Source of the DNA: Labrys monachus
Lineage (GTDB): Bacteria; Pseudomonadota; Alphaproteobacteria; Rhizobiales; Labraceae
Length of the DNA stretch: 64,000 nt
Assembly (NCBI RefSeq): GCF_030814655.1
Contig: NZ_JAUSVK010000001.1
Span: forward strand, 4,719,001-4,783,000
Reading direction: 5' to 3'
Below, piece by piece: positions 8,926-34,209 of this stretch; position 1 is the first letter of the stretch; every line of letters begins with the position of its first letter. A program made the translations under genes and the position numbers. Under the pieces are notes generated by a model. That model was given only the letters and a program-made list of their open reading frames with translations, was not told where the DNA came from and made no database searches.

Positions 8926-9039
8926 CCTGGACGACTCGGTCGCATTCGAACTCGGGGGTGTATCCGACGAGACTTGCCACATTTTCGGGACACCTCAAAG
9001 AATTGCATTCCCATCCCCGGCGTCGGGACGGACGAAAGA

Positions 9040-9065
9040 GGCGAGGGATCCTGCGATCCCTCGCC
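9040..9065 (-). terminator. rho-independent terminator after the HtrA gene
   Basis: A perfect 11-base stem (GGCGAGGGATC with GATCCCTCGCC) around a CTGC loop, read on the minus strand and followed by TCTTTCGT. It lies 54 bases after the HtrA stop codon. The tail is only moderately T-rich, so termination may be partial. Confidence 0.6.
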
Positions 9066-9118
9066 GAGTACCGGACGCCCCTCGATGCGGGGGAAAAAGA
9101 GGCGCCCGAAGGGAGGGC

Positions 9119-10651
9119 CTACGCCTTGCCGACGGGAAGGGCGACGAAGTGGGTGCCGTCATCGTTGTGGATGCGCAGCAACACGGTCCGCTTGCTGTCG
9201 GCGCGCGCCTCGGAGAGGATCTGGCGCACTTCCTGCACGTTGCTCACCGGCTTGCCGGCCACGTCGAGGATGACGTCGCCCGGGCGCAGCGTTTCGGCGG
9301 CGGCGCCGTCCGGATCGACGTCCGTCACCACCACCCCGGCCTTGCCGGCACCTGCCACGGTCGCGGCCGGCGCAAGCTGCAGGCCCAGCCCGGCGACGGA
9401 GGCCCTGCCGCCGTCATCCTGCGTGCTGTCGGCTTCGGCCATCTGCTTGTCGCCGGGCAGCTTGGCGGTCTCGACCTTGACGCTTTCCTGCTTGCCGTTG
9501 TTCCAGACCGTCAGCTCGGCGGTCTCGCCGGGCTTGATGTCGGCGATGGCGCGGGCGAGTTCACGCGGATCCGCCACGCTCTTGCCGTTGACGGCCGTGA
9601 TGGCTTCGCCCGTCTGGAGCCCGGCCTTGGCGGCGGGCCCGTTCTTGGTCACCTCGGCGATCAGCGCGCCGGAAGCCGGCTTCAGGCCAATCGAATCCGC
9701 GATGTCCGGGGTGATCGGCTGGATCTGCACGCCGATATAGCCGCGCGTCACCTTGCCGTCCGCCTTGAGCTGCGAGACGACGCGGGCGACGGTCTCGGCC
9801 GGAATGGCGAAGCCGATGCCGATGCTGCCGCCGGACGGGGAATAGATCGCCGTGTTGACGCCGATCACCCGGCCGGAGAGATCGAAGGTCGGCCCGCCCG
9901 AATTGCCGCGGTTGACCGGCGCGTCGATCTGCAGGAAGTCGTTGTAGGTGCTGTTGTTGAGGTCGCGCCCGCGAGCCGAGACGATGCCGGCGGTCACCGT
10001 GCCGCCGAGACCGTAGGGATTGCCGACGGCCAGGACCCAGTCGCCGACCCGCGGCTCATGCTGCGATTCGAGCTCGACGAAGGGGAAGTTGCCGCCATCG
10101 TCCTTGACCTTGAGCAGCGCCAGGTCGGTCTTCGGATCGACGCCGATCACCTTGGCCGTGTAGGTCTTGCCGGCATCCGTCACCACGTCCACCTCGGTGG
10201 CGTGGTCCACGACGTGATTGTTGGTGACGATATAGCCGTCGGCCGAGATGAAGAAGCCCGAGCCGAGCGCCATGCCGAACTGCTTGCGCGGCCGGCCGTG
10301 CATGCCGTTGCCGGCCCCCGGACCGTTGAAGAAGAACTCGAAGGGATTGACGGGCGCGCCGTCGGCGCCCTGGTCGCCATTGCCATTGCCATCGTCTGCG
10401 GCGCTGGTCTCGGTCTTCACCTTGATGGAGACGACGGCGGGACGCACCTTCTGCACGATGTCGGCAAAGCCGAAGGGCTGCACCGCCGGTGCCGGCTGGC
10501 TCTGGGCGAAGGCGGGGGTGACGGAAGGAGCAATCACGAAATTGCCGACCATCGCGCCGGCGACGCCGAGGCCGAAGACGGCGGCCAGCAGGCTGTTGCG
10601 GTGACGGGAGAGAATGCCGGTCTTCTGGTTGGGATCGTTTTCAAAAGTCAT
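9119..10651 (-). CDS. degP: HtrA/DegP-family periplasmic serine endoprotease
   Basis: A 510-residue envelope protease/chaperone that removes misfolded periplasmic proteins. A membrane-spanning or signal segment at residues 20-49 ends in PAFAQ. The catalytic triad is visible: His146 (TNNHVV), Asp176 (DPKTDLALL) and Ser251 (GNSGGP). Two PDZ domains follow (about 310-400 and 420-510). The start at 10651 has GGAG seven bases upstream; the frame stays open to 10753 but lacks a site there. It is divergent from dps and sits upstream of a two-component pair that may sense envelope stress. Whether it is DegP or DegQ/MucD in detail cannot be told. Confidence 0.92.
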   Translation of the reverse strand: MTFENDPNQKTGILSRHRNSLLAAVFGLGVAGAMVGNFVIAPSVTPAFAQSQPAPAVQPFGFADIVQKVRPAVVSIKVKTETSAADDGNGNGDQGADGAPVNPFEFFFNGPGAGNGMHGRPRKQFGMALGSGFFISADGYIVTNNHVVDHATEVDVVTDAGKTYTAKVIGVDPKTDLALLKVKDDGGNFPFVELESQHEPRVGDWVLAVGNPYGLGGTVTAGIVSARGRDLNNSTYNDFLQIDAPVNRGNSGGPTFDLSGRVIGVNTAIYSPSGGSIGIGFAIPAETVARVVSQLKADGKVTRGYIGVQIQPITPDIADSIGLKPASGALIAEVTKNGPAAKAGLQTGEAITAVNGKSVADPRELARAIADIKPGETAELTVWNNGKQESVKVETAKLPGDKQMAEADSTQDDGGRASVAGLGLQLAPAATVAGAGKAGVVVTDVDPDGAAAETLRPGDVILDVAGKPVSNVQEVRQILSEARADSKRTVLLRIHNDDGTHFVALPVGKA

Positions 10652-10982
10652 TGCAAAGCTCCATACTGGCTGACCGTCCGGAACTCTCGAACGATCCATG
10701 GCCATTGACTCAGCGCATCGACGCTGTTGAGGGGACAATGCCCCTCCCAACATTACGGCGCATTTTCCGGGGGATTACTCTTTGGTAAGATCAACGGTAA
10801 AGCCGACGTCGCAGGCTTGAGGGAAATCTCCGGACGGGCACCCGCAACAGGCCTGCCGCCGCCACGGGGCGCGAGCCGTCGGCGCCGGCGAGGGATGTGG
10901 ATTGACATCGCCCACCAAACGGACCGAAATCCGCCGTCGATCATACACGACATTCGTGCCAAGAACGAAAGGGCTGACGATC

Positions 10983-11492
10983 ATGACGAAAGAGAAAAGC
11001 AAGGCGCTGAAGACGGCCAAGCTGCAAACGCCGACCAATCTGTCGTCGAACGCCACGAAGGACCTGTCCGGCGCCCTCACCGCACTGCTCGCCGACGTGT
11101 TCACGCTTTACCTGAAGACCAAGAACTTCCACTGGCACATGTCCGGGCCGCATTTCCGCGACTATCACCTCATGCTGGACGAACAGGGCGACCAGATCTT
11201 CGCCATGACCGATCCCCTCGCCGAGCGCGTGCGCAAGATCGGCGGCACGACGCTGCGCTCGATCGGCCATATCAGCCGCCTGCAGCGCCTGGCCGACAAT
11301 GACGCCGATTTCGTCACCGCCCCCGATATGCTCGCCGAGCTTCGGGACGACAATGAGCGCCTGACGGCCTCGATGCGCGAGACGCACGAATTGTGCGACG
11401 AGCACAAGGACGTCGCCACCGCCAGCCTGCTGGAGGTCTGGATCGACGAGGCGGAACGCCGGACCTGGTTCCTCTACGAAGCGGGACGGTAG
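10983..11492 (+). CDS. dps: Dps-family ferritin-like DNA-binding protein
   Basis: A 169-residue Dps protein that oxidises and stores iron using peroxide and protects DNA. The ferroxidase ligands expected at the subunit interface are all present: His50 and His62 with Asp66 on one side, Asp77 and Glu81 on the other (motifs NFHWHMSGPHF, HLMLDEQ, DPLAERV). The N-terminal tail is Lys-rich (MTKEKSKALKTAK), suited to binding DNA. GAAAGGG lies upstream of the chosen ATG. It is divergent from the HtrA gene across about 330 bases and convergent with ccmH. The usual regulators of dps (OxyR, stationary phase) are not identifiable here. Confidence 0.93.
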   Translation: MTKEKSKALKTAKLQTPTNLSSNATKDLSGALTALLADVFTLYLKTKNFHWHMSGPHFRDYHLMLDEQGDQIFAMTDPLAERVRKIGGTTLRSIGHISRLQRLADNDADFVTAPDMLAELRDDNERLTASMRETHELCDEHKDVATASLLEVWIDEAERRTWFLYEAGR

Positions 11493-11548
11493 ACAGACCG
11501 GGTTTGGTTTGAACGCCCTTTTTTGGCAGCGGGGCGCTGCCCCTCTAT

Positions 11549-11572
11549 CCTCTCCCCGCATGCGGGGAGAGG
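11549..11572. repeat. 24-base perfect palindrome between convergent dps and ccmH
   Basis: CCTCTCCCCGCA followed directly by its reverse complement TGCGGGGAGAGG. It has no T-run on either side. Its position between convergent genes and its composition resemble the short GC-rich repeated palindromes found in many alphaproteobacteria. It may act as a two-way transcription stop. Confidence 0.6.
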
Positions 11573-11636
11573 GGACATCGGCGTCGCGACGGATCCTGGG
11601 GAAGGCGGCATCGCGCGGATGGAAGATCGGCTCCGA

Positions 11637-12095
11637 TTATTCCTGCCGTTTCAGGATCTCCTCCACGCTCGCCCGTTCGGCCTCGGTGAGGCCTTCGGGC
11701 GTGCTCGGGCGGCGGGTGCGGGCGGCTATGACGATGCCGGCCCCACCGGCGAGGAGAAGCAGGAAGGGCGCCGTCCACAGGGCCACCGTGCGCCATTCCA
11801 GCGGCGGCTTCAGCAGGATGAAGTCGCCGTAGCGCGAGACCAGGAACGCCTTCACCGCGGCGTCGCTCTCGCCGGCCCGGATCCTGTCGCGGACCAGCAG
11901 GCGCAGGTCCTTGGCGAGCGGCGCGTCGGAATCGTCGATCGATTCGTTCTGGCACACCATGCAGCGCAGCTCGGCCGACAAGGCCCGCGCCCGTGCCTCC
12001 AGCGCGGGATCGGCCAGCATCTCGTCCGGCTGGACGGCGAGAGCCGGCAGCGCCAGGAGGACGAGGAGCAAGGCGGGGAGCAGCCGGCGCAGCAT
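11637..12095 (-). CDS. ccmH: cytochrome c maturation protein CcmH (CycL)
   Basis: A 152-residue thiol-disulfide protein that keeps apocytochrome c cysteines reduced for heme attachment. It has a signal peptide (residues 1-20, ending PALA), the CcmH redox motif LRCMVCQN (Cys45, Cys48) and a C-terminal membrane helix (about 106-126) followed by a cytoplasmic tail. This short form lacks the TPR domain, which here is a separate gene, ccmI. The start sits two bases after the ccmF stop, so the two are translated together. It is the last gene of the ccmI-ccmE-ccmF-ccmH operon. Confidence 0.95.
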   Translation of the reverse strand: MLRRLLPALLLVLLALPALAVQPDEMLADPALEARARALSAELRCMVCQNESIDDSDAPLAKDLRLLVRDRIRAGESDAAVKAFLVSRYGDFILLKPPLEWRTVALWTAPFLLLLAGGAGIVIAARTRRPSTPEGLTEAERASVEEILKRQE

Positions 12096-12097
12096 GG

Positions 12098-14086
12098 CTA
12101 TTCGGCCGGCTGCAAGCGCTGGGCGGCTGCCCGGCGCGCCGGCTTGGGGGCGCCGATGCGCAGCCGCCGGTCCGACAATGACAACGCGCCGCCGAAGGCC
12201 ATGGCGACGCAGCCCAGCCAGATCAGCGTCACCAGCGGCTTGTCGTAGAGGCGGGCGGCGATGGTGCCGTCGGGCGCCGTCTCGCCCAGCCCGATATAGA
12301 TCTGGTCGAACCACAGGGTCTTGATGCCGGTTTCGGTCTGCGGCGTCTGGCGCGCCGGATAGAAGCGCTTGGAGGCCTCCATCTGCGCCACGGCGACGCC
12401 GCCGCGCCGGATCACGAAGGTCGAGACGGTGGCGCTGAAGTTCGAGCCCTGCCGCGGGCTGGCACCGACATAGGTGGCCTCGTAGCGGCCGAAGGGCACG
12501 GTGTCGCCCGGCTTCATCGCCACGATCTTCTCGGATTGCCAGGCGGTGGCGGCGACGATGCCGAGCAGCGTCACGCCGACGCCGAAATGCGCCACGGCGG
12601 TGCCGAAGGCCGAACGCGGCAGGCCGGCCGCCCGGCGCAGGCTGGAGGCCGCCGGCTCGCGGAACAGCTTGACGCGCTCGGCGAGCTCGACCACCGCGCC
12701 GATCATGATGAAGGCGGCCAGGCCGGCGCCGACCGGGGCGAGGGCCGGCCCGCCGCGCTCGAGCCACAGGGTCAGCAGCCCCATCAGGATGGCGAGGCCG
12801 ACCGCGACGCCGAGACGCTGCGCGACGCCCTGCAGGTCGCCGCGTTTCCAGGCCAGGAACGGACCGAACGGCATCACCACCAGCATCGCCGCCATCAGCG
12901 GGCCGAAGGTGAGGTCGAAGAAGGGGGGCCCCACCGAAATCTTGCCGCCCGTCAGCGCCTCCAGCGCGAGGGGATAGAGGGTGCCGAAGAACACCGCCGA
13001 GCAGCTCACCGTCAGCAGGAGATTGTTGAGGATGAGGGCGCCCTCGCGCGAGACGGGGGCGAAGATGCCGCCCTGCTTCAGGGTCGACGCGCGCCAGGCG
13101 AAGAGCGACAGGCCGCCGCCGATGAACAGGACGAGGATGGCGAGGATGAAGACGCCGCGCCTGGGATCGGTGGCGAAGGCGTGCACGGAGGTCAGCACGC
13201 CCGAGCGCACCAGGAAGGTGCCGAGCAGCGACAGCGAGAAGGTGAGGATGGCGAGGAGGATGGTCCACACCTTCAGCGCGTTGCGCTTCTCCATCACCAG
13301 CGCGGAATGGAGCAGCGCGGTGCCGGCGAGCCAGGGCATCAGCGAGGCGTTCTCGACCGGATCCCAGAACCACCAGCCGCCCCAGCCGAGCTCGTAATAG
13401 GCCCAATAGGATCCCATCGCGATGCCGAGCGTCAGGAAGAGCCAGGCGATCAGGATCCAGGGCCGCACCCAGCGCGCCCAGGCGGCATCGATGCGGCCCT
13501 CGATCAAAGCGGCGGCGGCGAAGGCGAAGGCGATGGAGAAGCCGACATAGCCCAGATAGAGCAGCGGCGGATGGATGGCGAGGCCGATGTCCTGCAGCAC
13601 CGGGTTGAGGTCGTCGCCCTGCATCGGCGCCGGATCGAGGCGGGCGAAGGGATTAGAGGTGAGGAGGATGAACAGCAGGAAGGCGACGCTGATCCAGGCC
13701 TGCACCGCCAGCACCGTCGCCTTCATCGAGGGCGGCAGGTTGCGTCCGAAGGCGGCGACGAGCGCGCCGAAGACGGCGAGGATCGTCACCCACAGCAGCA
13801 TCGAGCCTTCATGGTTGCCCCAGACGCCCGTCACCTTGTAGAGCATCGGCTTGGCCGAATGGGAATTCTCGACGACGTTGACGAGCGAGAAATCCGAGGT
13901 GACGTGCGCATATACGAGCGCGGCGAAGGACAGGCCGATGAAGAGGAGCTGGAACAGCGCCGCCGAGGTGCCGACGCGCATCAGGCCGAGGTCGCCGGTC
14001 CGCGCCCCCCAGATCGGCAGCACCGACTGCAGGAGCGCGAGCGTCAGCGCCAGGATGAGAGCGTAATGTCCGGCCTCGGCGATCAT
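12098..14086 (-). CDS. ccmF: heme lyase CcmF (CycK)
   Basis: A 662-residue polytopic inner-membrane protein that takes heme from CcmE and joins it to the CXXCH site of apocytochromes c. The family signature is clear: the periplasmic tryptophan-rich loop YELGWGGWWFWDPVENASLMPW (WWD domain) in the first third, many membrane helices, and conserved His residues. Its ATG overlaps the ccmE stop by four bases (ATGA), and ccmH follows immediately. It forms the heme ligation complex with CcmH and CcmI. Confidence 0.96.
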   Translation of the reverse strand: MIAEAGHYALILALTLALLQSVLPIWGARTGDLGLMRVGTSAALFQLLFIGLSFAALVYAHVTSDFSLVNVVENSHSAKPMLYKVTGVWGNHEGSMLLWVTILAVFGALVAAFGRNLPPSMKATVLAVQAWISVAFLLFILLTSNPFARLDPAPMQGDDLNPVLQDIGLAIHPPLLYLGYVGFSIAFAFAAAALIEGRIDAAWARWVRPWILIAWLFLTLGIAMGSYWAYYELGWGGWWFWDPVENASLMPWLAGTALLHSALVMEKRNALKVWTILLAILTFSLSLLGTFLVRSGVLTSVHAFATDPRRGVFILAILVLFIGGGLSLFAWRASTLKQGGIFAPVSREGALILNNLLLTVSCSAVFFGTLYPLALEALTGGKISVGPPFFDLTFGPLMAAMLVVMPFGPFLAWKRGDLQGVAQRLGVAVGLAILMGLLTLWLERGGPALAPVGAGLAAFIMIGAVVELAERVKLFREPAASSLRRAAGLPRSAFGTAVAHFGVGVTLLGIVAATAWQSEKIVAMKPGDTVPFGRYEATYVGASPRQGSNFSATVSTFVIRRGGVAVAQMEASKRFYPARQTPQTETGIKTLWFDQIYIGLGETAPDGTIAARLYDKPLVTLIWLGCVAMAFGGALSLSDRRLRIGAPKPARRAAAQRLQPAE

Positions 14087-14538
14087 GGCTTCTTCCCATA
14101 GGCCCCGCCCTCGTCCCAGTGGCCCTGCGCCTTGAGCGCATCGGCCACCTCCTTGGGCATGTATTTCTCGTCGTGCTTGGCGAGGAGGACATCGGCGCGG
14201 AACACCCCCGCCCCGTCGACGACGCCTTCGGCGACGACGCCCTGTCCCTCGCGGAAAAGGTCCGGCACGATGCCGGAATAGGTCACCTTGATCGATTTGT
14301 TGGTGTCCGTCACGCTGAAGGTGATGGTGGAGGCGCCCTCATGCACCAGCGAGCCCTTTTCGACGAGGCCGCCGAGGCGCCAGCGCTGCGCCGGGTCGAC
14401 CGCCTTGCCGACGATGTCGCTCGGCGCGGCGAAATAGGACATGGAATTGCCCAGGCTCACCAGCACGAGCGTCACGGCCGCCGCGAGCACCACGCCCGCC
14501 GCGCCGATCATCGCCATCCGCCTGCCCTTGCGCGTCAC
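14083..14538 (-). CDS. ccmE: heme chaperone CcmE (CycJ)
   Basis: A 151-residue membrane-anchored periplasmic heme carrier. It has one N-terminal helix (residues 8-29), an OB-fold domain, and the covalent heme-binding motif LLAKHDEKYMP with His122 and Tyr126 (HxxxY). It accepts heme exported by the CcmABCD system and passes it to CcmF. The ccmABCD genes are not in this window. Start and stop both overlap neighbouring genes by four bases, showing tight translational coupling. Confidence 0.96.
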   Translation of the reverse strand: MTRKGRRMAMIGAAGVVLAAAVTLVLVSLGNSMSYFAAPSDIVGKAVDPAQRWRLGGLVEKGSLVHEGASTITFSVTDTNKSIKVTYSGIVPDLFREGQGVVAEGVVDGAGVFRADVLLAKHDEKYMPKEVADALKAQGHWDEGGAYGKKP

Positions 14539-15650
14539 AGCCCGAGAGCCCCCTGCAGATCGTCGAGCGCCTTCAGCGCGTCGGGCGAGGCGGCGAGAGC
14601 CTTGCGGGCATCCGCGAGCGCCGTCCGCGCCTGATCACTTTGTCCCAGCACGTTGTAGGCCTTGATCAACCTCATCCATTCCTCGGCTGTACCACCTTGC
14701 GACCGCAGCCGCGAGGCGAGACCGGACACCATGCCCTGGATCATTTTGGCGCGGTCGGCGGGCGTCATCGTCTCGGCCGCCGCCACGTCGCCCGGCGACG
14801 GTCCGGTCCCGGCCTGCGGCTCGCCGCCGATCCGGGCGATCTCCTTGCGCAGAAATGCGGCGGCCGCAGGGCCGGGAGGCGGCGTGGCGTCGAGCAAAGC
14901 CTGCCAGGCCGCGACCGCACCGGCCCTGTCGCCGTCCTGCTCCCTCGCCCGGCCGAGATAATAGCCGGCGCGGTCGTCGCCGGGATCGAGCCGCTGGGCC
15001 CGCTGGAAGGCCGCCTTGGCCTCGTCCGTGACCATGCCGCCGGCTTCGGCCACCAGCGCCTCGCCGAAATCGGATTCGCGCCTGGCGGTGGAGCCGAGCA
15101 GCCGCAGGGCGTTGGCATAGGCCTGGCGGGCGTCCTGCAGCCGGCCCTCCTTCAGGTAGATCGGCGCCAGCACCTCCCAGCCGCGGCCATCCTGCGGGTT
15201 CGCGGCCAGCATCGCCTCGACGCGGGCGACGAGCTCGTCCAGCGAGGCGTTTTCCACGGGTTCGGCGAGCCGGGCGGTCAAAGGCTGGTCCGGCAGAGCC
15301 GGCGACCCGAGATGGAGATAGAAACCGAGGCCGCCGAGGGGGACGGCGACCAGGATGACGAGCGAGGCGAGACGATGGCGCCGGGCCGAGAAGGCGCCGG
15401 CCGCGGGAGCGCTCTTCGCTGCGGCGTCCGCCTCGATCAGCCGGCGCGACACCTCGACGCGGGCGGCCTGCGCTTCCGTCGGGGCGATGATCCCGCGCGC
15501 CTGGTCCCGCTCGATCTCGGCGAGCTGGTCCGTGTAGATGGCGATGTCGGAGGCCTGCGCGCTCACGCCGCCGTCGCGCCGCGCGAGCGGCCACAGCAGG
15601 GCCAGGGCGGCGATGCCGGTCATGCCGGCCAGAGCGAACCACAAGAACAT
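14535..15650 (-). CDS. ccmI: cytochrome c maturation TPR protein CcmI (CycH)
   Basis: A 371-residue apocytochrome c chaperone. Two membrane helices (about residues 2-21 and 92-113) flank a cytoplasmic segment, followed by a periplasmic TPR region (about 140-280) that binds the C-terminal helix of apocytochromes. The IYTDQLAEIERDQARGII stretch is typical of the family. It is the first gene of the ccm operon, and its last codons overlap the start of ccmE. The gap from 15651 to 15785 should hold the operon promoter. Confidence 0.92.
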   Translation of the reverse strand: MFLWFALAGMTGIAALALLWPLARRDGGVSAQASDIAIYTDQLAEIERDQARGIIAPTEAQAARVEVSRRLIEADAAAKSAPAAGAFSARRHRLASLVILVAVPLGGLGFYLHLGSPALPDQPLTARLAEPVENASLDELVARVEAMLAANPQDGRGWEVLAPIYLKEGRLQDARQAYANALRLLGSTARRESDFGEALVAEAGGMVTDEAKAAFQRAQRLDPGDDRAGYYLGRAREQDGDRAGAVAAWQALLDATPPPGPAAAAFLRKEIARIGGEPQAGTGPSPGDVAAAETMTPADRAKMIQGMVSGLASRLRSQGGTAEEWMRLIKAYNVLGQSDQARTALADARKALAASPDALKALDDLQGALGL

Positions 15651-25882: not shown

Positions 25883-25951
25883 ACCGCCGATGCGCGCAAA
25901 CGCCCGCCGATCGCCCGGCACGATCTGCTTGGCGGGAGGATAGGCCGTCGC

Positions 25952-28156
25952 TCACGCCGGCATGCCCGGTTCGAACGCGACGAGCTCGGCGACGATCGTA
26001 CCCCGGCTGAATTGCACATCCCATGCGACAGGGCCCTTCAGCGCTGCGATCCGGGCCTTGATGCTTACCGGCCCGTCATCCACAGGCGCCATCACGCGCG
26101 ATTCAACGAGCATCTCCCGGGAGGCGTCGTCCGAAATTGCCGTGCAGCGGAGCTGCAGCTTGAGCGGAGCACGCGACAGATAGGGAAGAATTGCAGCGCC
26201 GACGAAATCGCCCCAGGTGACCGGAGGCGGGGAGTATCGATCGTTCCAGGTCAATCCCGGGGTTGCGCAGTACGGAATGATCGGCAGGCCCATCGACCAC
26301 AGCAGCAGCAGAAGGCCGGGACGGCCCTCGATCTCGTGCACGCGCAGGCCGTCGACATCGGCACGCATCACCAGCCGGCCGCCTCGTCCGTCGGTTACGC
26401 AGTGATTTCCGGCCGGATCCAGCGTCGTCGACAGATATTCGCTGGGAGAAAATCGTGCAAAACGCGCCGGAATACGGCCGGTGGACGTGACGCGCCAAAG
26501 CGCCACGCCCGGGGCGAGGCCGGAAGCGAGGCTAAAACCGGCGGGAACGCGCAATGCGGCGCGCACCCATTGTCCCGCCTCGGGAACGCCGCCCTGAATC
26601 CATATCGGAGAGGCATCCGGGCCGGTCGCCACCAGCAGGTAATTGGCCAGCTTGAACGGCAGTGTCGGCGCGCCGGCCAGCGGGCCGGCTTGCACATGCA
26701 TATGGAGGTGAGGCGTGGGACTGCGGCCGGAATTCCCGACCGAGGCGAGTTCCTGGCCGACCGCGACGCGCTGTCCGGGACCAACGACGATCGATCCCCT
26801 GCCGAGATGGGCCAACATCAGCCAGAAGCCCTGATCCATGCGAATGACGACGTGATTGCCCCAATTCTGGCTGTAATTGCTGACGCCGATCGGGTTGTCG
26901 TCGATGCCGTCGCATATGAGCTCGACCACACCGGCGACGGGACAATAAACACGCGCCCCATATATTCCGTGGGGTGCGCCTCCATCGTGGGGGAACTCGA
27001 AGTCGAGGCCGTGCGACCATGCCCCGCGGTGGCTGAGCGGTCCGCCGAAGCTTTGACCGATCATGAGCGTCCCCGACAGCGGCACGGCGACGAGCGGTTC
27101 CGGCGCTCCGAATCGAGCCTCGGCCAGCATCGCCCGCTTCCATGCATATTCGGGCGGCAGATCCCGCCTCTGCGAGGTGACGACGGCATGCGGCACCGAA
27201 CGGGCCGAGAGCGCGAGGATGGCGACCCAAATCGTTATCAGGGCCGGGAGGGGCTGAAACGCCCATCCGGTCCCCCCAAATCCGGTCTGCGTCACCAGCG
27301 TGAGAATGGAGGCACTCACGCCGGCAAGGGCGGAGATGAACAGGGTCGTCCATCCCGGCAGATAGATGACCGCACCCAACAGCATGCCGGCGATGAAGCC
27401 ATTATGGGCCGATATCAGCCACATCCACTGAAAACCGAAGCCCGAGAGCAATTCGGCGGTCAGGACAGTGAAGATCCAGCCGACGATTCCGCTCAGCACC
27501 ATCGTTCGAGACCACAGCATCATCGCCGCCAGCACGAGCAGCCCCGTGACCGGACGCGGCGAGAAAAGGATCATGCCCATGGAGCGTAGAAACGAGTCGA
27601 GCCAACCTGTCGCTCCGATGGGAAAAGGCCAAACGACATCGCTCAGCGACGCGGCCTGCGCCCAATAAGGCAGGATCGTGAGGAGGATGCCGAAGACGAT
27701 GGCGAAGGCGGCGGAAAGCGGCGGCACCGGGGCGTGCACGAGCACCCGCGCCAGCGCCGCGGCCACCACCGCCGCCGCTCCGGAGGCAAGCAGGATGAAC
27801 AGCACCGCCACGTGAAGCGGCTGCCCCATCGGCGCCACGAGCCACGCGGCAGCGATCCCTGCAAGGATGCCGTTCGCGCGCACCGCCCCCTGCAGCCCCG
27901 GGTCTGCGCTTCCGATGGACCGAAGAAAAGCCTCGGCCATCAAAAGACCGAGAAGCGCCCCGATGAGGTGAGCCGGCTCGACCGCGGCTGCCGCCAGCAC
28001 GACGAGTCCCGCTCGGGGACTTCCGATCATCAGGATGCCGCCAAAGGCGCTGCCGAGTCTCTCGATCGGATGGTGCCGGCTCTCTTTTCGTTCGGTGACG
28101 AGGCGAGGCAAGCCCAGACGAGCGTTATGCCACCGCAACCGTACCCAATCGCGCAT
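25952..28156 (-). CDS. urea-transporter-like membrane domain fused to an M23 peptidase
   Basis: About 734 residues. The first 330 form a multi-helix membrane domain with the internal repeat of urea transporters: NGILAGIAAAW and NGFIAGMLLG half-signatures. The next 170 form a LytM/M23 metallopeptidase domain with zinc ligands His382 and Asp385 (WSHGLDFEF) and the HxH pair near 483-485 (HLHMHV), all intact. The last 200 or so are beta-rich and unassigned. The start chosen gives a TAATG coupling to the decarboxylase stop; an ATG 48 bases earlier is possible. It is the last gene of the PqqD/ATP-grasp/decarboxylase operon and may export or trim the product. Function is inferred only. Confidence 0.82.
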   Translation of the reverse strand: MRDWVRLRWHNARLGLPRLVTERKESRHHPIERLGSAFGGILMIGSPRAGLVVLAAAAVEPAHLIGALLGLLMAEAFLRSIGSADPGLQGAVRANGILAGIAAAWLVAPMGQPLHVAVLFILLASGAAAVVAAALARVLVHAPVPPLSAAFAIVFGILLTILPYWAQAASLSDVVWPFPIGATGWLDSFLRSMGMILFSPRPVTGLLVLAAMMLWSRTMVLSGIVGWIFTVLTAELLSGFGFQWMWLISAHNGFIAGMLLGAVIYLPGWTTLFISALAGVSASILTLVTQTGFGGTGWAFQPLPALITIWVAILALSARSVPHAVVTSQRRDLPPEYAWKRAMLAEARFGAPEPLVAVPLSGTLMIGQSFGGPLSHRGAWSHGLDFEFPHDGGAPHGIYGARVYCPVAGVVELICDGIDDNPIGVSNYSQNWGNHVVIRMDQGFWLMLAHLGRGSIVVGPGQRVAVGQELASVGNSGRSPTPHLHMHVQAGPLAGAPTLPFKLANYLLVATGPDASPIWIQGGVPEAGQWVRAALRVPAGFSLASGLAPGVALWRVTSTGRIPARFARFSPSEYLSTTLDPAGNHCVTDGRGGRLVMRADVDGLRVHEIEGRPGLLLLLWSMGLPIIPYCATPGLTWNDRYSPPPVTWGDFVGAAILPYLSRAPLKLQLRCTAISDDASREMLVESRVMAPVDDGPVSIKARIAALKGPVAWDVQFSRGTIVAELVAFEPGMPA

Positions 28157-29580
28157 TACAGAGACGATTCGCGTCGAACCAGCCGTGTCGGAACCATCTC
28201 GCAACTTTCGACATCCACCAATTCTTCACGTTTGCGGATCACCTCGGCGCGGCCATCGACGCCGATCAGCACGACGGCGGGCCGGAAAGCGATGAACTGC
28301 ATCGACTGGGTGACGTTGTAGGCACCCACCGGATGCAGGACGAGCCGATCTTCAACCTCGAGAGGAGGCAGATCCACCGACTCACGGATCACATCGATGT
28401 TCATGCACAGGCAGCCATATAATCTGACCGCGTTGGGCGGCAGATTGCTCGCACGGGCCGGCGTGACGCCGATGCGATACCAGGCGGCGGTATAGAGCAG
28501 GTTGATGCCGGCATCGACGACGTAGCCCCCGCGGGCATGTTCCCCGAGCACGAGGCTCGCTTTGGCATTGACCGCCGACAGATCCGTAGCGCCGGCGCGG
28601 TCCGCGCCCTTGACCGCGACGACGGACGTAATCAGCCAGCCCGCTTCGTCCACCAGATGGCGCCCGCTTTCCAGGCGCAACTGGGGCCGGCGCGCGCGCG
28701 GGAGCTTGTTGAGCACCCCGGCGATCGCTGCCGCGTAGGCCTCGATCGAGGGCACCGAATAGTCGGGCAGGCCATGCAGAACGCTGTTGGAGGGAAATCC
28801 GCCGCCGAGATTGATGCACGGCACCAGGTGATCGGTCTGCGCCTCGATATGGTCCCTCAACGCCAGAATACGGTCTGCGGTGACCGCATATGCCTTCGGG
28901 TCCAAAATGTAGGTGCCGATATGGGAATGAAGCGTGTGCAGCTTCAGGCGGGGATTGGAGATGATCCGCTGGGCCGCTCTCCTTGCTTCGCCATTGCCGA
29001 GCGCGAAGCCAAATTTCGACCACACGGGAGCGAGTCCCGTATCGACCCAGATGCGAATGCCGACGTTTACGGGCTCGGCCCTCTCGGCGACGATGGCTTC
29101 GATGAGTCCCAGCTCATCCCAATTGTCAATCTGAACGACGGCGCCTTCGGACAAGGCGCGCTCCAGACTGTGGCGCGGCTTGTGCGGACCGTTGTAGATG
29201 ATGCTGCGCCCGGGGATCCCGGCCCTGCGCGCTTTCTGGTACTCGAAATCCGAAACGACTTCGGCGATCCATCCCTCCTCATGCAGGACGTTGCAGATCG
29301 CGCCGAGATAATTGGTCTTGTACGACCACGCAAAGACCGTGTTGGGATAGACGCTTTCAAAGGCCTTGCGCGCGCGGCGGGCGGAGTCCCGCAACACCCT
29401 TTCGGAGAAAACGAAGAGCGGCGATCCGAATTTTTCGACGAGGCCTTCGACGCTCACGCCTTCGATGCGGTCGGTATGTGTCGTCCGCAGTCCGTGCGAG
29501 AGCGAATTGCGGGCAGCAGATGCCTCTCCCGAGCGGCCGAGTTCGCTGGTGATCACCGGCGGGGAGTATGGGGCAGTCAT
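28156..29580 (-). CDS. fold-type III PLP-dependent decarboxylase (ornithine/diaminopimelate decarboxylase-like)
   Basis: A 474-residue enzyme of the alanine-racemase-fold decarboxylases. Motifs in order: the PLP lysine Lys88 (WSYKTN), HSHIGTYI, the phosphate-binding NLGGGFPS, LESGRHLVDEAG (EPGR-like), GCLCMNIDVI (the Cys-x-x-x-Asp site) and GAYNVTQSMQF. It is not the housekeeping lysA, to judge by context and the divergent EPGR motif. The start at 29580 overlaps the ATP-grasp stop by four bases; the frame stays open to 29880 but that extension lies inside the neighbour. Substrate unknown: a basic amino acid, or the C-terminus of a peptide, are both possible. Confidence 0.85.
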   Translation of the reverse strand: MTAPYSPPVITSELGRSGEASAARNSLSHGLRTTHTDRIEGVSVEGLVEKFGSPLFVFSERVLRDSARRARKAFESVYPNTVFAWSYKTNYLGAICNVLHEEGWIAEVVSDFEYQKARRAGIPGRSIIYNGPHKPRHSLERALSEGAVVQIDNWDELGLIEAIVAERAEPVNVGIRIWVDTGLAPVWSKFGFALGNGEARRAAQRIISNPRLKLHTLHSHIGTYILDPKAYAVTADRILALRDHIEAQTDHLVPCINLGGGFPSNSVLHGLPDYSVPSIEAYAAAIAGVLNKLPRARRPQLRLESGRHLVDEAGWLITSVVAVKGADRAGATDLSAVNAKASLVLGEHARGGYVVDAGINLLYTAAWYRIGVTPARASNLPPNAVRLYGCLCMNIDVIRESVDLPPLEVEDRLVLHPVGAYNVTQSMQFIAFRPAVVLIGVDGRAEVIRKREELVDVESCEMVPTRLVRRESSL

Positions 29581-30659
29581 TCCGCGGCCTCCGAGCGATC
29601 CAGTGCCTGGTCGCGCATGAGCGTTCCGGTTACCGACAATTCGGCGAGATCGGTGATGTCGCCCACCAGATCGACGCAATGACGAACGAACATGCGTCCC
29701 GCGCTGCAGGTCTGCAGAGGAGTCTCCGGTAGCGAAGCTGCACGCTCGACGAGCGCGGCGGGCAGGTTGCAGCCGAGCTGAGATGGAAAATCGATCCAGG
29801 CAGGAAAACGAGGGTTCATTTCGATCAACGAATAGCCCCGCCGGCCCTTGATGAATTCGAGTTCGAAAGGACCATTCCACCGCAGGGCCGCGATGATACG
29901 TTTCACGGTATCGTTGAGCTGCGGATCGCTTACGACGATGCCCGAGAAAGCCTTGCCGGCCTTCGTCAAGAGCATTTTGCGAATCGAGCAGGAACCGACG
30001 ATGTCCCCCTGTCCGTTACCGAACCCGGCGACATCATATTCTTCCCCGTCGATGATTTCCTGCACCAGGACCGGGCCGCCCCAGACTTCGGTGAGCTGAT
30101 GGAAGGCGAAGGCGACCTCTGCCGGCGAAGAGACCCGACGTGCATCATAAAAGCGCCCTTTGAGGAACAAGGGGTAGCCTATCTCTGCGCCGGCCGAATA
30201 GGCGGCGGACAAACTGGGAGCGACTATCGTACGCGGCGCGCCGACGCCCGCCTCCGAAGCGAGCCGGGACAGGTTCTCCTTGGAACGTCGCTCGAAGGAT
30301 TGCTTGGTCGGCAACGTCACTTTTATCCGGCGGCGCCAGAACTCCTTGGCCAGTTTGAAATAATTGGGAATTTCGGCGTCGAGGCAGGGAATGATCATGT
30401 CCAGACGCTGGATTTGTCGGATCTCATCGATGCGATCGATGAGCGCGCCTTCTCCGGCTGCCGGGAAAGGCAGCGAGAACGCCACGTCGACATTGTCCAT
30501 ATCCATACTGAAGAGGCCGCTCTCCAACGGATCGTATGAAAGGCCGACGATCCTCGCGCCTGGATAGATACGACGAATGCTGCGGATGACGGCAGAGCCC
30601 GGCTGCGGGTTGTCGCCGCGATGGAGGCCACTGACGGCAATAGCCGGAAACTTTGGCAT
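29577..30659 (-). CDS. ATP-grasp ligase
   Basis: A 360-residue carboxylate-amine ligase. It has a Rossmann-like N-terminal domain (AVSGLHRGD), a central ATP-grasp lysine region (IGYPLFLKGRF, VQEIIDGEEYDVAG) and the metal-binding FELEFI and LIEMNPRFPAW segments that place Glu and Asn on magnesium. It activates a carboxylate as an acyl phosphate and joins it to an amine. A strong ribosome binding site (GGTAGGGAAG) precedes the ATG. Situated between the PqqD-like gene (10 bases upstream) and the decarboxylase (overlapping), it probably builds an amide in the cluster's product. Confidence 0.87.
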   Translation of the reverse strand: MPKFPAIAVSGLHRGDNPQPGSAVIRSIRRIYPGARIVGLSYDPLESGLFSMDMDNVDVAFSLPFPAAGEGALIDRIDEIRQIQRLDMIIPCLDAEIPNYFKLAKEFWRRRIKVTLPTKQSFERRSKENLSRLASEAGVGAPRTIVAPSLSAAYSAGAEIGYPLFLKGRFYDARRVSSPAEVAFAFHQLTEVWGGPVLVQEIIDGEEYDVAGFGNGQGDIVGSCSIRKMLLTKAGKAFSGIVVSDPQLNDTVKRIIAALRWNGPFELEFIKGRRGYSLIEMNPRFPAWIDFPSQLGCNLPAALVERAASLPETPLQTCSAGRMFVRHCVDLVGDITDLAELSVTGTLMRDQALDRSEAAE

Positions 30660-30669
30660 CTTCCCTACC

Positions 30670-31134
30670 TTAATTCACAGCCGATACGGTTGAGTTTCGT
30701 CCATGCCGGGCCCCAGCCGGCGCCTCCGCCCGGGGCACGGCGCGCTGCGGCGAACCGTTCGCCGCACTCCCGCGTCGTGCGGCGCCAGATCTCTTGAGGG
30801 AGCCACTTGCTTCCCGAGCGGGCAGCCCAACCATCGACATGTCGTTCAAGAAAAGCTCGACGTCGCGCTCTGCAATGGCGCGTCCGACACCATACCGCTC
30901 AGTATAACGCACCACGATCTCGTTTATTGGGGCGTTTACCTTCAGTTGACTGAGTATGAAGGACGCCGTCTCGCTGGCACGATGAAACTTCCCGGTTATA
31001 GTATCAAATATAAATCTGTTCTTGATTATAAGAACATGTGAAAAATCCGGGCTGGGGGGAATATCAAAGACGACCTTTTCCCCCTGTCTTTCTCTCGCCC
31101 CCGAGCGACGTCTTGTCTCTTTTTCCCGCATCAT
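30670..31134 (-). CDS. PqqD-like protein, probable peptide-recognition (RRE) domain
   Basis: A 154-residue protein whose residues 20-100 match the PqqD fold: a beta-hairpin (FIFDTITGKFHRAS), helices, and a winged-helix third part (ERYGVGRAIAERDVELFLNDMSMVGL). PqqD-like domains bind leader peptides of ribosomal peptide products. The C-terminal 50 residues are Ala/Arg/Ser-rich and look disordered. Two Met codons stand at the start and no strong ribosome binding site precedes them. It is the first clear gene of the operon and lies 45 bases after a candidate small peptide ORF. The recognition role is inferred from the fold. Confidence 0.72.
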   Translation of the reverse strand: MMREKETRRRSGARERQGEKVVFDIPPSPDFSHVLIIKNRFIFDTITGKFHRASETASFILSQLKVNAPINEIVVRYTERYGVGRAIAERDVELFLNDMSMVGLPAREASGSLKRSGAARRGSAANGSPQRAVPRAEAPAGARHGRNSTVSAVN

Positions 31135-31143
31135 AATGTAGTT

Positions 31144-31181
31144 CTGCCCTCTTTTTCAGTAAACCTGCCCCTTTTCAGTTA
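31144..31181. repeat. two imperfect direct repeats before the PqqD-like gene
   Basis: CTGCCCTCTTTTTCAGTAA starts at 31144 and CTGCCCCTTTTCAGTTA at 31165, 21 bases apart, which is two helical turns. They lie 10-47 bases upstream of the PqqD-like start. They could bind a regulator or be a translational element. Confidence 0.45.
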
Positions 31182-31289
31182 GACAACATCATTCACCGCC
31201 GGCCACCCCCATGTATACATCAGAACGTCCCACCAATTCAACAAATACGCTCCCCCGAGCGCGAAGGATTTAGCATAGCTAAATTTCAG
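31179..31289 (-). CDS. candidate small Trp/Tyr-rich peptide (possible precursor), non-ATG start
   Basis: A 36-residue reading frame starting at CTG (31287-31289), ending TAA. The Shine-Dalgarno AAGGAGGAGG lies six bases upstream, the strongest in this region. The peptide opens with KFSYAKSFALGG, has an NWWD motif, then YTWGWP, and ends NDVV; four Trp and three Tyr in 36 residues. TTG codons inside the frame (GGGGGAG upstream) or an internal ATG at 31220 would give 13-21 residue versions. It ends 45 bases before the PqqD-like gene, where a precursor would be expected. CTG starts are rare, so this may be chance. Confidence 0.35.
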   Translation of the reverse strand: MKFSYAKSFALGGAYLLNWWDVLMYTWGWPAVNDVV

Positions 31290-31305
31290 CTATAGCCTCC
31301 TCCTT
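31275..31305 (-). promoter_or_regulatory. ribosome binding site and inverted repeat at the head of the PqqD operon
   Basis: On the minus strand AAGGAGGAGG (31296-31305) is followed by ATAGCT-GAAATTT-AGCTAT (31275-31293), a 6-base stem that encloses the CTG start of the candidate peptide. A second short repeat, TTTAGC-ATA-GCTAAA, spans 31269-31283. The hairpin could control translation, or the palindrome could be an operator. A TTGACA hexamer lies at 31324-31329 on the minus strand, but no good -10 follows at the usual distance. Confidence 0.4.
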
Positions 31306-31329
31306 CTTCCATAATGGCCACTCTGTCAA

Positions 31330-32662
31330 CGATTTAAATCAAAGATGACAGGACGGTGCACAGAGAGACTCAGAAAGCCTCTCTCGTTGTTATAATTTTG
31401 GTTTTCAGGCCTGCCGCTACTGTGGAGCCGGAGGCAAATTGCCGATGGGCGCGTGTTTTGAGAGGTTCCCCAAAAGACGAAGACAACTGCAGGAGGGGGA
31501 TCAAAGGCAAACGCTGCACGGAAAGATTGCCGGCTCCCACGCCTTGCGGCAAGCCGTACTCAGGATAGTGGAGCCGTTGCAGTGCCGGTAGGAAATCCCA
31601 CAGTGAACTACGGTGGCGCACGACGTAGATGACAGAGGCGCCCGACGTAATTGATAGACGACGCTCACCGCACCCTCTCGCTTCGAGCTCCAGTTTAGAG
31701 CCTACGGCTCGTATCGCAATTCTGGCAGATTAAACGGCTGTATTTCTGTATTACTTCCGCACTTGAACATACGGGGCGCGTCCCCCGCCGAAGCCCATGG
31801 CACATTTTTCAGGGCGATCATCCCGCGGCACCGGCAATTTCGGAATATCCAGCGCGCGCTCGTGACGGGCCGTCTTCCCGACCCCCGGGCCGCCGCCGTC
31901 GACCGCCCGCAGAAGCGGCACGCGCGTCGCTGTGCCGCAGTTCCTGAATGCCGCATCGGTTCCCTCCCGCATCCGCGCGATGACAGACCCGACAGACCTC
32001 GCCGCTGAAACCCATGGCGGGCATTGCGGCAGGTCCGTCGGGAGATGGCACCGGCCCGGGAATGTCGAGCAGGTTCCGCACGCCATGACTTCCTCGGGCT
32101 CTCCGGCGGCGGCTCCAGGAGCCTTGTGCACCGCCCCCCCCCAAGACGCCGGTAGGCGGGTATTCCAACCATAGAGCGGCGCGTATCTTCGGAATAATCG
32201 AGTCGTTCTTCTGCGCCGCAAAAGACGTTCCTTGCAGAGGGGATGCACGACCTCAATCGGAGTGCGAAAAAAGCGGAGAGCGGAGCTTCGCAATCGATTC
32301 TCTGATGGGGAAGCGACCTGATCTCGGCCGGCCCCCAGACTCTATGTCTTCCCCGCCGGGCGGCTCGGACATCACCTCACCGAATCGATACCGATGTCTG
32401 CGGCGGGTACGGCGCCGACCTCGCCGGTCAGGTCCACGTCGCGCGTCCCGCGAAATCACAAGGCATGCGACCTGAACCGGTCGTCATCGAGACGCCGCAA
32501 ACAAGCTGGGCAGCTTCGGGCGTATCCCGCCATTTTCCTGGTCCGCCGCCGCTCCGCGCGTCTCCGATGATCCCCGGCAATCGCGTGCCCGAGAACGCCG
32601 GCGATGAGGACGAGCCTGAGCAACTCGGGCTCGATTCCATTTTATCGGACTGTGGAACTCAT
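31330..32662. other. long gene-poor region of mixed composition
   Basis: About 1.3 kb without a convincing gene. The first 400 bases are AT-rich; 31750-32640 is GC-rich. Overlapping open frames exist on both strands (for example 31702-32256 and 31751-32293, minus), but none has a ribosome binding site, recognisable motif or consistent third-position GC. Cys-rich translations around 31950-32090 hint at a decayed gene but nothing nameable. This looks like eroded DNA beside the accessory operon. Confidence 0.5.
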
Positions 32663-33187
32663 CTATTGAGCCAGTCCACGCGCTTCTATCGCCATTTTAT
32701 TCACGACAGGAGAGGCATGATCTCCCAGACTTACCAAATTAACGTCCCCCTTGATCACCTGATCGACGAATCCATCGACCGTACTCTTCGTGACCTTGGT
32801 CCAATAAGCGGCTCCGTCAGAATACCACTCGTTGCATGTCCAGTGGGCTTCGGTCTTGAGGGCCCCGGAGTAATGCCATATATTCTTCATACAGAATTTA
32901 TAGTCTTTTACCTTCCAGGTCCCAAAGGCATACCCCCTTCCGTCCTTGCTATACCCCAGGACGTCGCCGTTTGATTTGAAATAGAGAACGGCATTTGGAT
33001 AGGATATCGTATTTCCGGCGTATATGTCGAAGGTTTCCTCTTGCGTAAGAGCCCGAACATTGTCGAATACCTCCTCTCTCGTAAGTTCGGGGATATCGGA
33101 TGAAAAAGAAGAGTCAGTTCCAGCTCTGGCATTACCCGGCAACACTAGAGCCAAAATTAGGACAGCCGCAGAGTTTAGCACCCTCAT
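32663..33187 (-). CDS. small secreted protein, DUF995-like, unusually AT-rich
   Basis: A 174-residue protein with a signal peptide (MRVLNSAAVLILALVLPGNARA). The mature part has a repeated ALTQEETFDIYAGNTISYP pattern followed by YFKSNGDVLGYSKDGRGYAFGTWKV and two Cys, resembling DUF995 proteins of rhizobia by eye. The start at 33187 has AAGG eight bases upstream; ATGs at 33202 and 33211 are alternatives. The gene is much more AT-rich than the rest of the window, with many A/T third positions, suggesting recent arrival. It stands alone in gene-poor DNA. Function unknown. Confidence 0.6.
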   Translation of the reverse strand: MRVLNSAAVLILALVLPGNARAGTDSSFSSDIPELTREEVFDNVRALTQEETFDIYAGNTISYPNAVLYFKSNGDVLGYSKDGRGYAFGTWKVKDYKFCMKNIWHYSGALKTEAHWTCNEWYSDGAAYWTKVTKSTVDGFVDQVIKGDVNLVSLGDHASPVVNKMAIEARGLAQ

Positions 33188-34020
33188 GAATATCGCCTTC
33201 ATTCCTATCATGTTTGGATTTGTGTATTGATCGTCGGATCAATTCCATTTTTCTGGAACACCGACTAACTCATATACCGCGTTGACGTTATTCAATTCCA
33301 AAATTTGAATCAATAGCACATTGCATCGCCGTCGAATGTCCGCGGTCAAATACTGACAGGTAATTTTCGTCCGAGTCCGACCGAGACACGCGGGGGGCCT
33401 CGGATTCGGCAACCGGCCGAGGCTGCCACGCCGTCGGTCTTCTCGGCGCGATCCTGAGGGGACCGACAGGCCCATCGGCCGAAGGGAGCGGCGTCTTCCT
33501 CGCTCTTCGGCGCGCTCGGGCGATGATGGTCGGTGGAGGATGATATCTCGTCGGCGAAATCCCGCCGGTCGTCCTGCCCCGCCGGAGAGGCCTTGTTCGC
33601 GCCAACCTCGGGCCGGAACGACAAGGGCCGCGATTATCGCGTGGCTTTCAAAAGCGGCGTGCAGGGCATCGGGCTTCGCGCTTCCCGGCGGCGGGCCGGG
33701 GAATTCACGTGCGTCAGACACACCGCCCGCTCGAGCATGCGCCCGGCGCTTCGCTGATGCCGGACGAGAGGGGCGACGGCACCATCCTGATCAAGGTCGC
33801 TGCGCGTGGCGCCGCGACGGAATGATGACGATCCGGCACCGGCCCCTCAGGCCGCTTCGTCGAGGTGACGGAGACGCTGCCGGTGACTTCGAGTTCTCGC
33901 TTCCGGCGCTACCAGAGGCCGTGAAACGCATCCGAATTGACGTTTCGGCATTTGCCGCAGGCCCTCGCCGAGAGAGGCGGCGGCCTCATGCGCGACACCA
34001 CCCGGCGGAGAGCCATTCGG
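33188..34020. other. gene-poor region, no confident gene
   Basis: About 830 bases between the AT-rich secreted-protein gene and a small conserved ORF. Open frames on both strands (33239-33721 minus, 33540-34118 plus) are low-complexity Arg/Pro-rich translations with no ribosome binding site. They are likely chance frames in GC-rich DNA. Composition shifts from AT-rich below 33350 to GC-rich above it. Confidence 0.5.
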
Positions 34021-34209
34021 TCAGGCCTTGCCGCGGCGCTTGCCGCCCGTCGACCCGCGGCGCTGGGGCCGGCTCGCCTGTTCGCCCTCGCCGTGCCGCT
34101 CGATGCGGACACCGGTGAAGAAGAGGATCTCCGCGCTCTTTTCGCGGCCTTCGCGGCCCGATTGCGGTCGGGAGTTCGGCTGTTTCGGAAAGTGCAGAAT
34201 GACGCTCAT
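34021..34209 (-). CDS. small conserved hypothetical protein
   Basis: A 62-residue protein: MSVILHFPK opening, a central EILFFTGVRIERH segment, and a strongly basic Arg/Lys/Gly-rich tail. I recall short ORFs with the EILFFTGVRYER motif and basic tail from other rhizobiales, so I treat it as real rather than chance. An AGG nine bases upstream is a modest ribosome binding site. The basic tail could bind nucleic acid. Function unknown. Confidence 0.6.
   Translation of the reverse strand: MSVILHFPKQPNSRPQSGREGREKSAEILFFTGVRIERHGEGEQASRPQRRGSTGGKRRGKA

Follow-up and report, generated by a model that had tools for sequence, protein, structure and literature searches.

A recurring proteobacterial operon in which a leader-like decarboxylase tail may dock a lasso-type recognition element

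The subject of this report is a four-gene operon of Labrys monachus, located on the minus strand at positions 25952-31134 of a 64,000-nucleotide stretch of contig NZ_JAUSVK010000001.1 (positions 4,719,001 to 4,783,000; the whole stretch is hereafter called the window). The genes encode a PqqD-like protein, an ATP-grasp ligase-like protein, a pyridoxal phosphate (PLP) decarboxylase and a protein in which a urea transporter (UT) domain is fused to an M23 peptidase domain. The PqqD-like protein has the fold of the recognition elements (RREs) that bind leaders of ribosomally synthesized and post-translationally modified peptides (RiPPs), and the conserved leader-like sequence appears to be the decarboxylase's own N-terminal tail. 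Sequence comparison suggests that the operon re-uses a RiPP leader/RRE pair as an enzyme-docking device in biosynthesis, a proposal that we place at an even balance. The computed observations that carry it are the recurrence of the operon, the limitation of the tail motif to operon decarboxylases in the sample, the RRE fold and the key residues of the RRE pocket.

In the proposed mechanism, the RRE would bind the decarboxylase tail in trans through the motif [Y/W]xxPx[L/I/F] and would probably recruit that decarboxylase to the ATP-grasp ligase. An amide would be formed on an amino acid by the ligase, after which the FigC-like enzyme would remove the carboxyl group from the conjugate, ligation preceding decarboxylation by analogy with Francisella rhizoferrin synthesis. 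The UT-type membrane protein may move or sense the small polar product, and the fused M23 domain may cleave the amide bond. Physical docking, the order of the reactions, the substrates, the product and the transport role are what we infer.

The decarboxylase tail

The decarboxylase (474 residues, 28156-29580, minus strand) is a type III enzyme of the alanine racemase fold that matched both the N- and C-terminal Pfam domains of the Orn/DAP/Arg decarboxylases. Its start was taken as the ATG that overlaps the stop of the ATP-grasp gene; the longest open frame begins at 29880. Similarly, the longest frame of the fusion protein begins at 28204, upstream of the overlapping start that was chosen. The overlapping starts, which give proteins of 474 and 734 residues, agree with the proteins of the relatives. 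In the decarboxylase, the N-terminal tail spans residues 1 to about 50 (~29431-29580, minus strand) and contains the leader-like sequence YSPPVI at residues 5-10 (29551-29568, minus strand).

The motif [Y/W]xxPx[L/I/F] was present in all 39 operon decarboxylases with a readable tail, 41-48 residues ahead of the decarboxylase fold, taking forms such as YQGPTI, YESPRI, WSKPTL, WQKPTL, YQKPEI and WEPPMI elsewhere; the decarboxylase of locus L091 has a second match closer to the fold. A PqqD gene was present in the sequence examined for 36 of the 39. The tail count used the longer L161, L162 and L160 instead of L106, L109 and L118, which come from the same genomes, and left out L079 and L104, which have no readable decarboxylase start. 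Among 27 motif-bearing representatives at 85% identity, the first position (position 0) was W in 18 and Y in 9, the proline was invariant, and the last position was I in 15, L in 11 and F in one.

When the tails were shuffled, the motif occurred in 1.6 of 39 on average and in 8 at most (2000 rounds). As a control, the motif was sought in residues 1-60 of the longest frames and occurred in 1 of 39 ATP-grasp proteins and 3 of 39 UT fusion proteins. It was absent from all 30 LysA proteins, from one LysA-like protein (L129), from one FslC-like protein that lacks PqqD and ATP-grasp partners (L092) and from a PqqD-less decarboxylase homologue (L160, 349 bits with the operon profile). The two natural losses, L092 and L160, are few yet fall the right way for docking. 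The L160 homologue stands in a row with WD40, AAA ATPase and TIR-domain proteins (8128-14689, genome G333, contig C72), an arrangement suggestive of a conflict or defence system with a decarboxylase fold among its parts.

The lasso-type RRE

The PqqD-like protein (154 residues, 30670-31134, minus strand) matched Pfam PqqD at E=2.1e-8, with the RRE fold at about residues 34-104 (~30823-31035, minus strand). In a profile search against solved structures, its only relatives at E <= 1 were TfuB1 (1.3e-9), TbiB1 (1.3e-6) and 9x90_B, the last being a lasso PqqD-family chaperone, PbaB1 according to the accession list of the paper (PMC13381572). The AlphaFold2 model, confident over the domain, has three strands followed by three helices. 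The best Foldseek matches were 5v1u, 6jx3 and 5v1v, and all six matches at E <= 0.001 were chains of TbiB1 or TfuB1 from structures that include leader peptides. In sequence and fold, the protein is closest to leader-bound lasso RREs, and it has the PqqD/winged helix-turn-helix-like fold that is related to leader-binding domains. An Ala/Arg-rich C-terminal extension of the window protein was absent from five other aligned copies.

Lasso RREs are described in PMC13381572 as binding leaders with the motif [Y/W]xxPx[L/V/I/F/A], and a ligand of this form is encoded alongside the operon RRE in 39 of 39 readable tails. The pocket residues given there for LppB and PbaB1 were transferred manually to 37 PqqD proteins by way of the profile alignment, L106 and L109 being the versions used in this table. 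The Phe that divides the pocket was F in 36 and Y in one, the Asn that fixes the Pro kink was N in 31 and S in six, and the Asp that bonds the Tyr was D in 26. The Asp was paired with 10 of 11 Tyr-type tails versus 16 of 25 Trp-type tails.

The operon RRE is thus like the lasso B1 proteins (TfuB1/FusB1, TbiB1 and PbaB1, with YxxP/WxxP leaders), its nearest solved relatives, in fold, key pocket residues and ligand motif. Lasso systems differ in that the operon has no lasso peptidase or cyclase and no precursor was found, and the motif here lies on the tail of an enzyme. The RRE-Finder study (PMC7470986) reported many discrete lasso RRE matches without lasso enzymes, which may be DNA-binding proteins or belong to unknown classes, and putative RREs without known RiPP enzymes also figure in PMC12710340.

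Recurrence of the gene set

The four genes are tightly joined, by a 10-base gap, ATGA and TAATG, as the initial annotation had stated. An ATP-grasp-pair scan of named genomes located six alphaproteobacterial loci (L034-L039), in metagenome-assembled genomes (MAGs) of Pararhodobacter, Rhodobiaceae and Roseovarius, in Alkalilacustris brevis, in a Rhodobacteraceae MAG and in Salinihabitans flavidus. All four genes were present in order in five of the six; in L039, the PqqD gene is missing and the start of the ATP-grasp gene is apparently interrupted.

The profile of the fusion protein gave a match at E <= 1e-30 in 35 of 398 genomes of the phylum. Apart from the window genome there were 34, of which 32 were examined, G446 and G486 with fragmentary UT matches being left out. 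All four genes occurred in the same order in 27 of the 32 non-window UT-M23 loci, one of them (L104) split across contig ends; three others were truncated at contig ends, and two (L076 and L078) had the fusion protein only. The survey was carried out within Pseudomonadota and extended beyond it by the named-genome scan with narrow patterns. Many of the surveyed genomes were fragmentary, and L002, a duplicate of L035 with identical contig coordinates and scores, was excluded from the counts. The occurrence of the same genes in the same order in distant genomes exceeds chance. The pairwise distances of the four proteins correlated, with Spearman coefficients of 0.66-0.95 to which shared genome ancestry contributes (31 loci and the window, with L091, L100 and L104 omitted). 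In the window's class, a decarboxylase match at E <= 1e-75 was rare, found in 4 of 385 genomes including that of the window, and at one of these loci, L092, the decarboxylase has no partner genes.

Three loci (L091, L161 and L162) have the PqqD, ATP-grasp and decarboxylase genes without a UT-M23 gene. L091 (6117-11600, genome G661, contig C245) encodes PqqD, a 713-residue tandem double ATP-grasp protein, the decarboxylase and, in place of the UT-M23 protein, a UT-SIR2 fusion. No UT-M23 gene was found in the 10.6 kb examined downstream of L161 or in the 3 kb between L162 and the contig end. These loci point to a possible three-gene core, in which the RRE, ligase and decarboxylase are more tightly linked to one another than the membrane protein is to them.

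The initial annotation had also presented the set as one without a characterised pathway and proposed a neighbourhood search; the 27 complete loci bear out the co-occurrence. No described pathway with this set emerged from a search of open-access full text, subscription papers being outside its reach, nor did any paper that joins PqqD, ATP-grasp and a urea transporter, or an RRE with a decarboxylase and ATP-grasp. Promoter and terminator scans of the operon gave null results (3 versus 1.6 expected and 5 versus 5.2 expected, respectively).

Genes for SBP_bac_5 and dienelactone hydrolase-like proteins adjoin the operon in all six L034-L039 loci, in two arrangements. These families were scanned in L034 and L038, and the SBP_bac_5 protein of L034 is weakly NikA/GsiB/CntA-like. 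They were rejected as fixed parts of the system, the best binding-protein match in the window genome being 27% identical. A protein of ~300 residues with no family match and a TPR protein lie 3' of the fusion gene in L066, L069, L075 and others, and occur in many loci outside the window's class; the ~300-residue protein looks like an outer-membrane barrel. This pair, which was not seen at the window's operon, was likewise rejected as a fixed part.

Ligase and decarboxylase chemistry

The ATP-grasp protein (360 residues, 29577-30659, minus strand) was assigned by family profile matches to the CarB-like/PRK12767 group, its Pfam and CarB-like NCBIfam matches falling under the respective cut-offs. 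It is 43-46% identical to five alphaproteobacterial operon copies.

In a profile comparison with structures, the decarboxylase scored 223 bits with FigC (7kh2), 157.6 with the Methanocaldococcus jannaschii diaminopimelate (DAP) decarboxylase and 106 with BtrK; its nearest solved relative is the FigC/FslC N-citrylornithine decarboxylase. The two share C-M-x-x-D, with Met behind the catalytic Cys where the M. jannaschii enzyme has Glu, and this Met was found in 39 of 40 motif matches of the decarboxylase set. The cut-off of the curated FslC/FigC family NF041039 was not reached (191 of 500 bits), and it was passed by none of 150 genomes. The possibility that the enzyme is the cell's LysA was rejected: the TIGR01048 score was 194 of 297.9 bits, and a separate LysA is encoded elsewhere in the genome, at C1:6520377-6521603.

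FigC, SbnH and AcsE are reported to decarboxylate citryl conjugates, and MccE and BtrK other conjugates (PMC7857480, PMC8503589). The comparison of the operon enzyme with this conjugate-acting clade consists of profile scores and one motif. Since all five enzymes act on conjugates, ligation followed by decarboxylation would be the likeliest order. Both activities, amide formation and decarboxylation, were predicted in the initial annotation and are consistent with the protein families found.

In the Francisella rhizoferrin pathway, FigA and FigC alone are reported to suffice (PMC7857480). That system (FigA/FslA with FigC/FslC) is like the operon in having a ligase that acts before a decarboxylase of the same subfamily with C-M-x-x-D; it differs in that the ligase is a nonribosomal peptide synthetase-independent siderophore (NIS) synthetase rather than an ATP-grasp-like protein, and the operon decarboxylase scores below the FslC cut-off. 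The butirosin proteins BtrJ, BtrK and BtrI are also alike, in that an ATP-grasp enzyme, BtrJ, accompanies an alanine racemase-fold decarboxylase that acts on a conjugated substrate. BtrI is an acyl carrier protein; the small partner in the operon is an RRE instead.

In L076 (1410-10542, genome G336, contig C22) and L078 (8483-17736, genome G359, contig C20), the UT-M23 gene lies near a C45/AAT acyltransferase and an Orn/Lys/Arg (OKR-type) decarboxylase, the latter of another fold than the operon decarboxylase. A 500-residue neighbour in L076 is a PRK06524 protein that scores below the family cut-off; the corresponding protein of L078 begins almost identically. PRK06524 proteins are of the biotin carboxylase type, with an ATP-grasp fold. 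Both loci also carry a homologue of the ~300-residue protein found downstream of other copies. The replacement supports amides of decarboxylated amino acids as the product class and names no compound.

The membrane protein

The fusion protein (734 residues, 25952-28156, minus strand) has a UT-like membrane domain (~27212-28048, Pfam UT 5e-20) and an M23/LytM domain (~26687-27031, Pfam Peptidase_M23 3.5e-12), both on the minus strand, and then a C-terminal region. Asp385, His450, His483 and His485 were invariant in all 40 aligned fusion sequences, the window's included, and residue 382 was His in 30, as in H382 of the window protein, and Tyr in 10. These five residues are presumably the M23 metal and catalytic positions. 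The domain families are those of the SLC14/UT urea channels and the M23 endopeptidases; the operon protein differs in fusing both in one chain and in being tied to a biosynthetic operon. Of 259 open-access matches on urea transporters, M23 peptidases and fusions, the six listed included no paper whose title concerned a UT-M23 fusion.

Export with cleavage, as the protein was first read, was not established. M23 enzymes usually act outside, and SIR2 enzymes need NAD. Because SIR2 stands in place of M23 in the UT-SIR2 chain of L091 and depends on NAD, the fused domain may face the cytoplasm. A hydropathy and charge profile along the UT domain was too crude to fix the side of the membrane.

Weighing of docking and its alternatives

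Several observations weigh against docking. The motif is short and was counted in related sequences, the 41 tails forming 29 groups at 85% identity, of which 27 carry the motif. The PqqD-less homologues in the sample are only two, and L039 retains the tail although its PqqD gene is missing and its ATP-grasp start is apparently broken. The residues 1-35 have a predicted local distance difference test (pLDDT) score below 50, which is weak evidence of a disordered tail because the whole model of the decarboxylase was poor (mean pLDDT 61.9). In the RRE, 9 of 25 Trp-type and 1 of 11 Tyr-type copies have lost the Asp; these losses lie mostly within one WEPP-like group, so that ancestry is a confounder. 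The other mapped pocket positions vary, and where LppB has L83 many copies have Ala, Pro, Ser, Lys, Gln or Val; that this residue is often not large and hydrophobic counts against a fully lasso-like pocket. Finally, 15 of the 27 complete loci encode PqqD as the C-terminal part of a 262-276-residue protein whose role may be regulatory, and nine of these 15 (L066, L069, L070, L071, L075, L077, L096, L097 and L099) have a candidate operator at most 50 bases upstream of its annotated start, in the form of a near-identical palindrome of the type TGAAAGTAAATACTCTCA.

These long proteins bear on a serious alternative that need not exclude docking: the RRE would be a sensor that reports on the decarboxylase and regulates transcription. 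TetR_N preceded PqqD in all four long proteins scanned, with E-values for the two domains of 1.2e-6 and 1.2e-8 (L066), 5e-6 and 5.3e-9 (L069), 2.1e-9 and 4.4e-4 (L082, PqqD below the Pfam cut-off) and 1.6e-4 and 1.2e-7 (L075, TetR_N below the cut-off). The palindrome found in 9 of 15 long-PqqD loci was present in none of the five short-PqqD loci scanned. Single palindromes were no better than shuffles of their own sequences, however, the genomes are related, and in the window, the remaining alphaproteobacterial copies and several further lineages PqqD is a small protein without a DNA-binding domain. The recurring palindrome caused docking to be eased to its present even balance and the sensor to be raised, to an explanation that we still consider unlikely. 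In the fusion lineage, the domain order and the palindrome make autoregulation of the TetR-RRE protein likely, and it may report on the decarboxylase that it docks.

A true RiPP pathway, in which the RRE presents a precursor encoded elsewhere, the ATP-grasp protein and decarboxylase modify it, M23 removes the leader and the decarboxylase tail is a docking copy, is rather improbable. An RRE with ATP-grasp, decarboxylase and peptidase is a RiPP-like set, and MccE, of the same decarboxylase clade, is described as working on the peptide antibiotic microcin C (PMC8503589). A precursor was sought among small open reading frames (ORFs) around 24 loci, as far as 1.5 kb on the upstream side and 2.5 kb on the downstream side, four stretches being shorter at contig ends. 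There were 1467 small ORFs, of which 116 were common to at least three other loci, and 103 of these overlapped larger ORFs with homologues in other loci. Eleven of the remaining 13 run across a single upstream DNA element that is conserved in related loci and is the TGAAAGTAAATACTCTCA-type palindrome in the nine long-PqqD loci, and two were long antisense-looking frames. No conserved precursor ORF was therefore found beside the enzymes of the 24 loci, and this masked comparison, confined to the operon neighbourhood, led to the rejection of a hidden precursor gene beside the operon. The lasso leader peptidase PF13471 was absent in 21 of 25 genomes with RRE, ligase and decarboxylase, the window genome (G000) among them; G297 has a weak second PF13471 match on the contig of the operon, ~14 kb away.

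Peptide recognition, as originally suggested for the operon, thus stands in that the PqqD-like protein is of the RRE type; the separate peptide substrate was not supported, and the leader-like motif lies on the decarboxylase tail. An undescribed peptide- or amino-acid-derived system agrees with the recurring set and with the lack of a described pathway, less its separate peptide precursor.

That the decarboxylase itself is modified, the RRE presenting the tail as a leader and the ATP-grasp protein adding an amino acid behind it to tune the enzyme, is very doubtful: this would follow the leader-then-core logic of RiPPs, with a conserved segment behind the motif as target (NKFG in many lineages, with N at offset 14 in 18 and K at offset 15 in 19 of 27 motif-bearing representatives), but the window and the six named alphaproteobacterial copies do not share it, and no metabolic enzyme is known to be modified in this way.

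Genomic setting

The operon is held in an insertion of ~8 kb (25900-34020) that was delimited by alignment with sister genomes. The window's flanks match all four sister genomes up to ~25849 and again from ~34021-34088, and the sisters carry ~0.4-1 kb at the site. The genes that flank the operon are kept in the four sister genomes, where they are 2.4-4.2 kb apart versus 10.0 kb here. Among five genomes of the genus, the ATP-grasp gene was found at E <= 1e-30 only in that of the window, which is part of a 6.92 Mb single-contig genome. In 1-kb segments, the GC fraction was 0.60-0.665 over the operon. It was 0.55-0.60 next to it, at 31-34 kb, and mostly 0.66-0.72 elsewhere in the window, with some lower segments. 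The initial annotation had described the operon as slightly lower in GC than its flanks and as consistent with an accessory island; GC is indeed lower across the insertion, and the accessory island is supported. The remainder of the insertion (31135-34020) is low in GC and gene-poor, with a DUF995 protein at 32663-33211. No tRNA gene was found at the insertion or within the 64-kb window.

Implications

The wider proposal, just short of an even balance, is that a leader/RRE module has moved into small-molecule metabolism: an enzyme would wear the leader as a docking tag, a discrete RRE would assemble it with a ligase, and the product would be an amide-linked, decarboxylated amino acid, across many Pseudomonadota. 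With a docking tag on an enzyme, a recognition module of natural-product pathways would have acquired a new use, and the simple peptide/RRE pair would be a natural scaffold for linking enzymes. It would also account for part of the discrete RREs that RRE-Finder reported without lasso machinery. RREs serve as a class-independent marker for finding ribosomal peptide natural products, and if some of them hold the tag of a metabolic enzyme, RRE-based genome mining misreads such loci. The operon would define an unexplored, widespread amide-forming pathway that is tied to an unusual fusion of a urea channel and a hydrolase.

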